Shown: in pieces, positions 4,894 to 60,658 of the stretch
Layout of the letters: the number at the start of each line of letters is the position of its first letter
How positions within the stretch are numbered: the stretch's first letter is position 1
Source of the DNA: Fodinibius salicampi
GTDB lineage: Bacteria; Bacteroidota; Rhodothermia; Balneolales; Balneolaceae
DNA length: 64,000 bases
Assembly (NCBI RefSeq): GCF_039545095.1
Contig: NZ_BAABRS010000001.1
Location: forward strand, 434,001-498,000
Direction of reading: 5' to 3'
The notes under the pieces: model-generated
The model's input: only the letters and a program-made list of their open reading frames with translations
Database searches by the model: none
Told to the model about the DNA's origin: nothing
Program-made: the position numbers and the translations under genes

Positions 4894-4989
4894 TTATCCA
4901 CAATTAAAATGCGCGAGAAAATATAATTTCTTAGGAATTGGTCTATAGGTGGCTAAAAATTGTGGATAACTTCCCCATTTTGTGGAAAA
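4894..4989. promoter_or_regulatory. Cluster of three DnaA boxes upstream of nrdJ
   Basis: TTATCCACA at 4894-4902 (plus strand), TGTGGATAA at 4961-4969 (minus-strand box, perfect) and TGTGGAAAA at 4981-4989 (TTTTCCACA on the minus strand, fits TTWTNCACA). They lie 18 to 113 bases upstream of a candidate promoter for nrdJ. DnaA is known to control ribonucleotide reductase transcription in E. coli and Bacillus. An origin of replication is the alternative reading. Confidence 0.7.
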
Positions 4990-5006
4990 GTAATTGGGTT
5001 TTTTAC

Positions 5007-5036
5007 TTGCTCCAAAGTTGCAGTCCGTTATATTTA
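5007..5036 (+). promoter_or_regulatory. Candidate nrdJ promoter, Bacteroidota type
   Basis: TTG at 5007-5009, a 19-base spacer and TATATTTA at 5029-5036. This matches seven of eight positions of the TAnnTTTG -7 element with usual spacing. It would give a leader of about 85 bases before the nrdJ ATG. Confidence 0.45.
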
Positions 5037-5129
5037 ATTATAGAAAATGTGGAGTTATTAATTGTTTTATAAATCCCTTCTACAACGCAGGTAAGTAATA
5101 ATTATTAGTCAAGTAACTGGAGAAATTAT

Positions 5130-8100
5130 ATGAAATTTACACGCTTTTATACTCAGGATGATTGGGAAACCCCATTCGGGGACATGAAATTTGAGAGCCG
5201 GAAATCGGAGATTAAAAATCCGGACGGCTCAATGGTTTTTTCGATGGATGAGCTAATTGTACCTGAAGACTGGTCGCAGGTATCAACAGATGTGATAGCT
5301 CAGAAATACTTTCGCAAAGCCGGAGTCCCCAAAAAGACTAAGAAAGTCAAGGAAAAGGGAGTACCCAAATGGTTGCAGCGTTCCGTACCTGATGAAAAGG
5401 CGATGAAAGATATTCCCGAGGATGAGCGTTTTGGCGGAGAGGATGATAGTCGCCAGGTATTTCATCGTCTGGCGGGTTGCTGGACCTATTGGGGCTGGAA
5501 GCATGACTACTTTGATTCGGAAAAGAATGCAAAGGTATTTTATGATGAACTGTGCTATATGCTGGCAAACCAGATGGCGGCTCCAAACAGCCCGCAGTGG
5601 TTTAATACCGGCTTGCACTGGGCTTATGGCATCAACGGGCCGTCGCAGGGACACTATTATGTCGACGGGAAGTCCGGAGAGCTTAAGCGCTCGGAAGATG
5701 CCTATACCCATCCACAGCCGCATGCATGCTTTATCCAGAGCATTGATGACAACCTCGTGAATGAGGGCGGTATTATGGATCTGTGGGTACGGGAGGCCCG
5801 CCTCTTTAAATACGGATCCGGAACAGGCAGCAACTTTTCCAAAATTCGCGGTGAAGGAGAACCTCTGAGCGGCGGCGGAAAATCTTCCGGTCTGATGAGT
5901 TTTCTCAAGATTGGAGATAAGGCGGCCGGTGCTATCAAATCCGGTGGTACGACACGTCGTGCGGCCAAGATGGTAACGCTGGATCTGGATCATCCTGATA
6001 TTGAAGAGTATGTAAACTGGAAGGTGCGCGAGGAGCAAAAGGTCGCTTCTATTGTAACAGGATCCAAAATCCTTGAAAAGCATCTCAAGAAAATTATTAA
6101 GCTGTGTAATAAGCCGGTGGAGATTGACGGGCGTACCTTCAACGGGGCGGTCAGCCGTGATCCTCTGAAAAACAAGGAGCTCGGAAAAGCAATTAAAGAA
6201 GCGAAGGAAGACCAGGTGCCGCTGAATTATATTGAACGCGTCGTTCAGCTGGCTGAGCAGGGCTTTACGGATCTGGAGTTTGATACATATGATACTGACT
6301 GGGATTCAGAGGCTTATCGTACGGTGAGTGGACAGAATTCCAACAATTCGGTCCGTATTCCCAATAAGTTTATGAAGGCCGTCAAAAATAATGACGAATG
6401 GAACCTGTATTGGAGGACTGAAAAACGTAATGCTGAGAAAGAGGGCAGAGAACCAGAGCCCTGCAAGAGTATGCCGGCGCGTGAACTCTGGGACGATATC
6501 GCCAATGCGGCCTGGGCATGTGCTGATCCGGGAGCGCAATACCATGATACGATTAATGAATGGCATACTTGTCCCGAGGACGGACCCATAAACGGTAGTA
6601 ATCCCTGTTCGGAATATATGTTCCTGGATAATACGGCCTGTAACCTGGCTTCACTGAACCTGATGAAGTATTTTAAAACGGATCAGTGTCAGGAATTTGA
6701 TGTGGAAGCGCTTCGTAATGCTTCCCGTTTGTGGACAGTTGTGCTGGAAATTTCAGTGCTGATGGCCCAGTTTCCCTCCAAAGAGATCGCAGATCTTTCT
6801 TATAAGTATCGCACGCTCGGTTTGGGTTATGCGAATATAGGCGCGGCTCTGATGGTTCAGGGCGTTCCCTATGATAGTCCCGAAGGTTGTGCGATTGCCG
6901 GTGGGCTGACTAGCATCATCCACATGAATGCTTATGCGACCAGTGCGGAGATGGCAAGTGAGTTGGGGACCTTTGAACGCTATGAAGCAAATAAAGAACA
7001 CATGCTTCGTGTGGTTCGCAACCACAAGCGAGCGGCTTTCAATGTGGATCCCGATGAGTATGAAGGGCTTACCGTCAAGCCGATGGGTATTGATGCGAAT
7101 GAATGTCCCGACAACCTGTTAAAAGCGGCACGGGAAGACTCCAAAAAGGCCGTAGAAATGGGTAAGGAACATGGCTACCGCAACGCCCAGGTAACGGTTA
7201 TTGCACCGACCGGAACGATCGGTCTGGTTATGGACTGCGATACTACCGGCATTGAGCCCGACTTTGCCCTGGTGAAGTTTAAGAAACTGGCCGGCGGCGG
7301 ACACTTTAAGATTATAAATCAATGCGTGCCCAAGGCGTTAGAGAACTTGGGTTACAGTCCCAAAGAGCGTAAGGAAATCATTAATTATGCAAAAGGATAC
7401 GGCACGCTGGACGGTTGTCCGCATATTAATGAGGAGAGCCTGCGCGAGAAAGGCTTTGGTGATAAACAACTTGAAGCCATTGAGGAAGCGCTGCCCAGTA
7501 GTTTTGAAGTGAAATTCGCTTTTAACCAATGGACGCTCGGCGAGGATTTCTGCAAGGAAGAGCTCGGACTTACAGATGAGCAGCTTGCTAATCCGCAATT
7601 TGATATACTCAAGCATCTCGGGTTCACCAACGAGGAGATCAGGGAAGCTAATAATTATGTGTGTGGAACCATGACCGTAGAGGGCGCTCCGCATCTGAAA
7701 GATGAGCACCTGCCGGTCTTTGACTGTGCTAATCGATGTGGACGTATCGGAACACGGTACATCAAACCCGGCGGACATATCCGCATGATGGCTGCTGCAC
7801 AACCGTTTATTTCCGGCGCTATTTCAAAAACGATCAACCTGCCGAACGAGGCCACCGTAGAAGACTTCAAGGATGCCTATATGGATTCCTGGGAGCTGAT
7901 GCTCAAAGCCAATGCGCTTTATCGCGATGGATCAAAGCTGAGTCAGCCGCTGAATAGTCTCAGCGATGTCTTTGAAGACCTCGACGAAGAAGATCTGGAT
8001 GAGGAGACCGCGGAAGCTCAGAATAAGGTAGTTGAAACGGCTGAGAAGATTATCCATAAGTATGTGGCTGATCGTCAGCGCCTGCCTAACCGTCGAAGCG

Positions 8101-8762
8101 GTTATACGCAGAAGGTGAAGATCGGCGGACAGAGTGTCTACCTGAGAACGGGTGAGTACGAAAACGGACAGCTAGGTGAAATCTTTATAGATATGCACCG
8201 CGAAGGCGCCGCTTTCCGAAGCCTGACCAACTGCTTTGCTATTGCAATTTCACTTGGACTGCAGCACGGGGTACCACTCGAAGAATTTGTGGATGCCTTT
8301 ACCTTTACCAAGTTTGAGCCCAGCGGAACCGTTAATGGAAGTCCGCATGTTAAGATGACGACCTCTGTTATCGACTATATCTTCCGCGAGCTGGCTGTAA
8401 CCTATCTCGGTCGGGATGATTTGGCTCATGTTCCTGCAGAAGATGTGATGTCGCGAAAAATGCGGCCTTCGGAAGAAGCCGAACAGGCCCGTGAAAAGGC
8501 CAAGCGCGTAGATCCAAAGCAGGCCCCTGGTACCGATGATGATAATGGTGAATCTGAGGAGCCAGAAACGGTGGTGCAATCACAACCGACGAAAAAGGCC
8601 CAGACTGCCGCAGATGACAACAGTTACCAGAGCGATTACGAGAAGGCGAAAGAACTGGGTTATACCGGCGACTCTTGCCCCGAATGCGGAAGTATGACGA
8701 TGGTGCGCAACGGCACCTGTCAGAAGTGTATTACTTGCGGGTCGACTACCGGTTGCTCGTAA
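5130..8762 (+). CDS. nrdJ: Vitamin B12-dependent (class II) ribonucleotide reductase
   Basis: 1210 residues, the long class II form. It reduces ribonucleotides to deoxyribonucleotides using an adenosylcobalamin-generated thiyl radical. Visible are the N-terminal substrate-site region ([23 protein letters not shown]), the active-site N-x-C-x-E motif in GSNPCSEY, the barrel motif VIAPTGTIG, a C-terminal TSCPD domain ([23 protein letters not shown]), an acidic linker, and a terminal zinc ribbon with redox cysteines (CPEC, CQKC, CGSTTGC). GGAG at 5119-5122 supports the ATG. No allosteric ATP-cone is evident at the N-terminus. Three DnaA boxes precede it, and B12 acquisition genes lie immediately upstream, so supply and use of the cofactor are clustered. 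Confidence 0.97.
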
Positions 8763-59956: not shown

Positions 59957-60658
59957 ATGACCAATAAAAAAGATGAAAAGTTAAGTGTGCCCGAGAATTT
60001 TGAAGACACTCATCACGATGATGTCTGGAGTGTTTTCAAGATTATGGGGGAATTTGTAGAAGGATATGATAAGCTTTTTAAAATTGGCCCCTGTGTTTCT
60101 ATCTTTGGTTCTGCACGAACGTCAGTAGAAGGGAAATACTATGAGATGGCCCAGTATACTGCACAAAAAGTAACAGAGCAGGGTTTCGGAGTTATAACAG
60201 GTGGTGGACCCGGAATTATGGAGGCCGCCAATAAAGGAGCACAAGAAGGAGAAGGGAAATCTGTTGGTCTGGGGATTACTTTGCCCCATGAGCAGGGGTT
60301 GAATGCATTTGTGGATAATGATTATGTCATTAACTTTCACTATTTCTTTGCTCGAAAGGTTATGTTTGTTAAATATGCACAGGGATTTATTGTATTTCCG
60401 GGTGGGTTTGGAACACTCGATGAGTTTTTTGAAGCATTAACCCTTATCCAAACAAAGAAGGTTACCGCGTTCCCCGTCGTTTTAATAGGAACAGAATATT
60501 GGAAGGGATTGGTTGACTGGATTGAAAATACTATGATAGAAAATGGTACCATTTCAAAAGGAGATTTAGACCTCTTTCATCTTACCGACGATCCGGATGA
60601 AGCAGTCAATATTATTTGTGAATTTTATAAGGAACATACGTTACAACCCAATTTTTAG
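59957..60658 (+). CDS. LOG-family (TIGR00730) nucleotide phosphoribohydrolase-like protein
   Basis: 233 residues. Rossmann fold with the LOG motifs GGGPGIMEAANKGA and PGGFGTLDEFFE. The family hydrolyses N-glycosidic bonds of nucleoside 5'-monophosphates (cytokinin activation in plants, nucleotide salvage or PpnN-like stress roles in bacteria). It is 12 bases after the DUF5683 gene, in one run with parAB. Confidence 0.92.
   Translation: MTNKKDEKLSVPENFEDTHHDDVWSVFKIMGEFVEGYDKLFKIGPCVSIFGSARTSVEGKYYEMAQYTAQKVTEQGFGVITGGGPGIMEAANKGAQEGEGKSVGLGITLPHEQGLNAFVDNDYVINFHYFFARKVMFVKYAQGFIVFPGGFGTLDEFFEALTLIQTKKVTAFPVVLIGTEYWKGLVDWIENTMIENGTISKGDLDLFHLTDDPDEAVNIICEFYKEHTLQPNF

Follow-up and report, generated by a model that had tools for sequence, protein, structure and literature searches.

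Conserved DnaA-type boxes at the promoter of the class II ribonucleotide reductase gene nrdJ in Balneolaceae

Results

The nrdJ locus of Fodinibius salicampi

The DNA analysed here, referred to as the window, is a 64-kb stretch (64,000 nucleotides) of the Fodinibius salicampi genome. It includes nrdJ (5130..8762, + strand, ATG at 5130), which encodes a B12-dependent (class II) ribonucleotide reductase (RNR) of 1210 aa. The product matches NCBIfam NF005736 over residues 1-1210 with 2001.8 bits (cut-off 1737), as a full-length class II enzyme, and its closest titled relatives, from Balneola and Balneolaceae, are 77-78% identical. Upstream of nrdJ lie a cobalamin riboswitch (740-956), the BtuB-like TonB receptor that it precedes, for which B12 receptors are the best match (with a score under that family's cut-off), and genes for a beta-propeller protein and a Dph6-like ATP pyrophosphatase.

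A riboswitch in the nrdJ leader itself was considered and rejected. The riboswitch at 740-956 is the only one in the window above the Rfam threshold, and the nrdJ loci of nine relatives gave no plausible Rfam match (E up to 5). RNAalifold, applied to 14 nrdJ leaders of related genera, returned four pairs with zero double-sided changes, so that a conserved RNA fold in the leader is not supported. A conserved ACTTCTTTAGGAG ... GTACGCCA-ATG arrangement was seen in nrdJ leaders of five other genera (g4, g6, g10, g13 and g18), where it is strongest; none was found in the genus of the window, and the arrangement shows no covariation and no plausible Rfam match in the sampled loci.

Boxes and promoter elements upstream of nrdJ

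Three DnaA boxes precede nrdJ. The distal box, TTATCCACA (4894..4902, + strand), is inverted with respect to the other two and lies 67 bp from the next. The proximal pair consists of TTATCCACA (4961..4969, - strand) and, 20 bp from it with an 11-bp gap, TTTTCCACA (4981..4989, - strand). Past the second box by 17 nt is a -33/-35 promoter element, TTG (5007..5009, + strand), and then a -7/-10 element, TATATT (5029..5034, + strand), in the arrangement TTG-N19-TATATT; the longer TATATTTA occupies 5029-5036, 19 bases after the TTG. A first-pass annotation of this DNA had described three DnaA boxes, 96 bases end to end, and a TTG-N19-TATATTTA promoter ahead of nrdJ, and all of these elements are where it placed them.

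The pattern TTWTCCACA occurs at four sites in the window, three of them inside the 96-base cluster. The fourth is a lone TTATCCACA at 60310-60318. There are 50 one-mismatch matches, while shuffles average 41.5 (s.d. 7.0) and reach 50 in 7 of 100 cases. Since such sites are not clearly enriched in the window, isolated sites mean little and only the cluster counts. Genome-wide, F. salicampi carries 85 copies of TTATCCACA, versus 31 of the reversed control pattern.

Conservation of the pair at nrdJ within the family

Regions upstream of nrdJ (up to 420 bp) were taken from 55 of 58 genomes; the set leaves out G019 (3′ part of nrdJ only), G031 (weak matches only) and G047 (no match). All 33 Balneolaceae genomes in which the 5′ end of nrdJ is readable have the pair TGTKGATAA-N11-TGTGGAAAA, and so does one genome of another family, G035. 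The first-pass annotation had named absence of the boxes in relatives as an outcome that would count against it, and the opposite was found. A further box, upstream of the pair and within 420 bp, is seen in 30 of the 33. Its position differs by genus. In 11 of 12 genomes of the same genus as the window it is inverted and 65-68 bp above the pair (as TTATCAACA in G009), and in the twelfth, G005, it lies 98 bp upstream; in 18 of the 21 other family genomes it lies 161-199 bp above the pair, mostly in the orientation of the pair.

An alignment of 34 rows, comprising the 33 family members and G035 and selected for holding the pair, gives mean pairwise identities of 0.98 and 1.00 for the two boxes, 0.46 for the spacer and 0.31 for the 60 bp upstream. 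When each genus is represented by a single genome (20 genomes), the corresponding values are 0.97, 1.00, 0.42 and 0.33. The second box is TTTTCCACA in 34/34 rows and never TTATCCACA; the first tolerates TTATCAACA. The promoter is held in register with the pair: TTG lies 16-17 nt past the second box in 33/34 rows, and TATATT lies 38-39 nt past it in 31/34, at 30 nt in one row, and was not found in two. The pair and its distance to the promoter appear to be conserved under selection, in upstream DNA whose flanks are unconserved.

A chance clustering of 9-mers might be entertained, given how common single one-mismatch sites are in the window (50, with a shuffle mean of 41.5). The 33/33 conservation already refutes it, as do the 84 perfect boxes in the 55 nrdJ upstream regions versus 0.30 expected from dinucleotide shuffles, and the 20-bp pair, which appeared in 0 of 11,000 shuffles of these regions. 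We consider the probability of chance negligible.

Genome-wide specificity of the pair

A relaxed form of the pair, TGTKGAWAA-N11-TGTGGAAAA, has 48 matches in 55 genomes, and its reversed control pattern has 0. Matches were assigned by comparing coordinates; G034, which has the pair, and G056 and G057 are outside this search. RNR operons account for 39 of the 48, with 33 at nrdJ (32 in the family, plus G035) and six at class I operons (G002, G003, G004, G006, G010 and G029). Promoters resembling that of nrdJ, located elsewhere, account for another four (G004 has two, G006 and G032 one each). The remaining five lie at other places, including one 3′ of nrdJ (G017) and one at the dtd locus (G042). 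A match in G033 is upstream of gyrB (recognised by eye), in the opposite orientation, and two matches, in G014 and G017, adjoin one kind of gene, which we take to encode purine nucleoside phosphorylase.

The four nrdJ-type promoters found elsewhere, L166 (G004:C16), L167 (G004:C32), L168 (G006:C1) and L299 (G032:C4), each combine the pair, TTG and a TA-rich -10, and precede putative short transcripts. At L166, L167 and L168, inspection by eye shows the promoter to be followed by hairpins and a tiny ORF. Two of the four loci adjoin defence-type genes (Pycsar PycTM/PycC; MazG_C, ThsB-like TIR and Nmad2).

Boxes at nrdJ outside the family

Three other families of the same order (f3-f5) carry 22 perfect boxes at nrdJ in 19 genomes, versus 0.07 expected, and 13 of the 19 have at least one perfect box within 400 bp of nrdJ. 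These 19 are the genomes with a genome-wide box count; G056 and G057 have boxes but no count. Boxes with an 11-bp period (2-bp gap) occur at nrdJ in 7 of 21 f3-f5 genomes (G040, G043, G048, G049, G050, G052 and G057); both are perfect in G050 only, and the six others have degenerate members. None of the listed boxes was found upstream of nrdJ in two of the 21, G036 and G054. A search for the 20-bp pair in f3-f5 gave no match at nrdJ, the sole match being that at dtd in G042. The 20-bp pair is a trait of the family of the window plus G035.

In 14 regions from other families of the class, which we take to be Rhodothermales and in which NrdJ differs in length, TTWTCCACA occurs within 450 bp of the start in 7; six of the seven sites are upstream of the start, and since the starts were guessed mechanically and are uncertain, these regions are not counted as support. 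Among 80 nrdJ loci, nine have TTWTCCACA in the upstream 400 bp: four from Balneolaceae, one from Nitrospinaceae and four with single sites. The last four, in three alphaproteobacteria and Plesiocystis, are distant, beyond -280. Ignavibacteria-labelled nrdJ loci among the 80 have zero TTWTCCACA in the upstream 400 bp. The two boxes of the Nitrospinaceae locus, L061, are TTTTCCACA and TTATCCACA, with a spacing of 21 bp; this parallel is isolated and phylogenetically remote from the order of the window.

A similar element at the class I operon

Thirteen genomes have a class I RNR match in an open frame of ~800 aa, of which 12 were examined, leaving out G035. A cobalamin riboswitch lies upstream of nrdA in 12/12 (for example G000:C1:642435-642640; operons L274-L285). 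Between riboswitch and nrdA, nrdB is found in ten of the 12; in G028 and G030 its motif is unmatched, though the distance leaves room for it. In five genomes (G000, G003, G004, G006 and G007) metE stands at full spacing between riboswitch and nrdB. Four genomes (G001, G002, G010 and G011) seemingly lack metE or have a shortened copy, and in them the riboswitch is still ahead of nrdBA.

Upstream of the riboswitch, TGTGGAAAA starts 41-43 bp before it in 11 of the 12 operons, and G028 has TGTGGAGAA. A partner box, more or less degenerate (e.g. TGTTGACAA, TGTTAACAA), can be seen by eye ~20 bp further up, and TTGACA, also by eye, lies 7 nt past the box in ten of these 11 operons (G030 being the exception). 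At nrdJ the box and the -35 are 16-17 nt apart, roughly one helical turn further than at the class I operon. With the last box in common and a similar helical phase, nrdJ and the class I operon seem to be built on a single operator design. In the wider class and phylum, a survey of 23 class I nrdA loci, which would miss operons that begin with another gene, found TTTTCCACA in 5/23 and TTATCCACA in 0/23.

The replication origin lies elsewhere

The first-pass annotation left open that the boxes mark a replication origin, pointing to an AT-rich stretch at 5029-5090, and proposed a GC-skew analysis. This alternative did not survive. That stretch is 76% A+T versus 68% across the whole intergenic region, and so is only mildly richer. 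Of 17 sampled 20-kb stretches of contig C1, the ten between 0 and 780 kb have a positive GC skew and the seven from 900 kb onwards a negative one; nrdJ, at 439 kb, has positive skew on either side. In the one-contig relative G069, nrdJ lies at 3.33 Mb, within the negative arm and ~1.1 Mb from the skew switch. Finer sampling puts that switch at the 955-kb boundary, with skew values of -0.089 before it and +0.054 after it. This is where dtd starts (955,347, minus strand), and DnaA boxes stand next to it at 955,634 and 955,705; of the stretches after the switch most are positive and five slightly negative (down to -0.027). No switch was seen at nrdJ in the sampled stretches of either genome. In F. 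salicampi, 287 bp at the dtd locus contain TTATCCACA four times and TTTTCCACA twice, six boxes altogether, and dnaA is located away from both this probable dtd-linked origin and nrdJ. Despite the three boxes and the 76% A+T stretch, we reject the nrdJ upstream region as oriC, with next to no probability left for it, since there is no skew switch at nrdJ, box clusters at dtd make a better candidate, and dnaA is elsewhere.

The probable oriC lies between dtd and the next gene at L120 (G000:C5:184066-184352), G069:C1:955347-955713 and L318 (G042:C75). The motif TTATCCACA-N3-TTWTCCACA was dropped as an origin mark, as it occurs in 4/28 genomes only.

Candidate regulators

A profile search placed NrdR above cut-off in 0/55 genomes, versus 9/14 control genomes, and an NrdR site at nrdJ was rejected for this reason. 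Weak matches of 20-25 bits occur in seven of the 55, and five of them overlap class I NrdA frames, presumably through an ATP-cone shared by NrdR and NrdA. DnaA is present in 26/26 genomes searched, with GGRDHSTVIHA kept in its C-terminal region in all 26, and all 26 also have TTATCCACA in the 450 bp ahead of the guessed dnaA start. Two copies at 97-99 bp spacing are seen in 24 of the 26 (one of the two is TTATCAACA in L213); L224, where the contig starts close to dnaA, has one TTATCCACA within the 450 bp. The boxes at nrdJ are the same 9-mers as those at dnaA and at the probable dtd origin (an origin inferred from skew in one relative). With NrdR not found, and DnaA present with TTATCCACA at its own gene, DnaA is the economical candidate regulator.

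Discussion

Here, we describe a conserved arrangement of boxes and promoter at nrdJ which, on comparative grounds, is probably the operator of a DnaA-regulated RNR promoter; we put the probability of this at roughly three in four (0.76). DnaA control of nrdJ had been proposed in the first-pass annotation. That part of the proposal gains from phylogenetic footprinting, with pair and promoter distance retained at nrdJ across the family (33/33), and its origin alternative is lost. We infer DnaA as the binder, activation as its effect, and coupling of dNTP supply to initiation as the outcome. DnaA would bind the two head-to-tail boxes, 20 bp or about two helical turns apart, just above the -35. 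In the genus of the window, the inverted high-affinity box ~67 bp further up would anchor it. The proximal pair may fill as DnaA rises, with the distal box possibly as an anchor, and nrdJ transcription would be tuned to the amount of DnaA or to its bound nucleotide. The pair is upstream of the -35, without overlap and in similar helical phase in both operons, which makes activation at a moderate level of DnaA, or contact with or recruitment of RNA polymerase, a better fit than simple occlusion. The sign of the effect at nrdJ is uncertain, because in E. coli DnaA can either activate or repress nrdAB.

Several observations count against this reading. The gap at the pair is 11 bp, versus 2-3 bp in E. 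coli; TTTTCCACA is invariant in the second box and TTATCAACA is tolerated in the first; and the class I partner boxes are degenerate. Changes of the TTTTCCACA, TTATCAACA, TGTTGACAA and TGTTAACAA type hit positions that are usually kept in DnaA boxes, and another protein with a similar site is conceivable for that reason. The pair is also limited to the family and G035, the nrdJ upstream regions of G036 and G054 show none of the box forms listed, and four nrdJ-type promoters stand before other putative transcripts.

It is also possible that a dedicated RNR regulator other than DnaA, standing in NrdR's place, reads the tandem TGTKGAWAA, a sequence that resembles DnaA boxes. The near-exclusivity of the pair to RNR operons (39 of 48 places) is in line with such a protein, as are the fixed TTTTCCACA of the second box, the tolerance of the first for TTATCAACA and the still more degenerate class I partners. 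However, in the same genomes TTATCCACA is also found at dnaA, and the probable origin carries both 9-mers; other families, too, have perfect TTATCCACA boxes at nrdJ, in varied arrangements, some with the 2-bp gap of known DnaA double boxes. We regard a dedicated regulator as unlikely, though it is the alternative to be taken most seriously. A second alternative assigns the boxes to replication timing, as a site of DnaA titration or reactivation (datA- or DARS-like) that stands before nrdJ by happenstance. The boxes are perfect and clustered, and theirs is one of several such clusters in the genome. Yet the nearly constant promoter distance and the recurrence at the class I operon tie the element to RNR transcription and not to a position on the chromosome. 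In G043 nrdJ is ~33 kb from dnaA (if the single contig is circular), but in G069 it is ~1.1 Mb from the point where the skew switches. A titration site seems to us improbable.

If DnaA does act at nrdJ, its reach may be wider. The element also precedes the class I operon, where the cobalamin riboswitch comes after it, so that DnaA could set the amount of reductase and B12 the class that is used. Whether DnaA now fills the role of NrdR in this order, with one operator design on nrdJ and the class I operon and a B12 riboswitch choosing the class, is in our view an even call. If it has, replication initiator status and B12 supply would together set dNTP production. DnaA is likely the main transcriptional regulator of dNTP supply in this lineage, and the nrdJ element suggests a tie between DNA-precursor supply and the replication initiator. 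If this is true, a distant lineage evolved or retained a link between dNTP supply and the initiator. A class II RNR with a DnaA-type operator and no recognisable NrdR would offer a clean natural system for asking whether DnaA sets the amount of RNR, and the two-operon layout, with a shared element and a riboswitch on one operon, presents a clear and testable two-input logic.

Control of RNR by DnaA is known from other systems. It is shown for the class Ia enzyme of E. coli, indicated by binding for the class III enzyme and proposed for Caulobacter (PMC11317965, PMC8203912). Like nrdJ here, E. coli nrdAB has DnaA boxes in its promoter region, three in number, and is activated or repressed depending on DnaA amount and nucleotide (PMC8203912). 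The E. coli enzyme is of class Ia, whereas nrdJ encodes a class II enzyme in a lineage without NrdR above cut-off. The geometry also differs. E. coli DnaA prefers double boxes with a gap of 2-3 bp, a 2-bp gap being equivalent to an 11-bp period, and the nrdA double box has a 3-bp gap (PMC11317965), in contrast to the 11 bp of the Balneolaceae nrdJ pair. At nrdJ, the gap is 11 bp in this family and 2 bp in the 7 of 21 f3-f5 genomes mentioned above, six of them with degenerate members. E. coli nrdD, bound by DnaA upstream in ChIP-seq (PMC11317965), is a second RNR class with DnaA upstream, and differs in being class III with no link to B12. In a literature search with partial coverage of full texts, we found no paper linking DnaA to nrdJ. 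The best reading of the sequence comparisons is a conserved RNR promoter under DnaA control that resembles E. coli nrdAB but serves a class II enzyme, in a lineage with no recognised NrdR.

The NrdR system provides a second point of comparison. NrdR boxes are 16-bp palindromes 15-16 bp apart and, as here, one operator is common to several RNR classes per genome (PMC12176259). The nrdJ element, by contrast, consists of 9-bp repeats, and NrdR exceeds the cut-off in 0/55 genomes. Streptomyces combines a class II nrdJ with a class Ia operon under a B12 riboswitch, and its NrdR reportedly binds the promoters of both RNR operons. The likeness lies in the B12 riboswitch on the B12-independent reductase, which here is the class I enzyme (12/12 operons examined). 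The difference lies in what the two operons have in common: NrdR in Streptomyces, and here, instead, a shared DnaA-type element.
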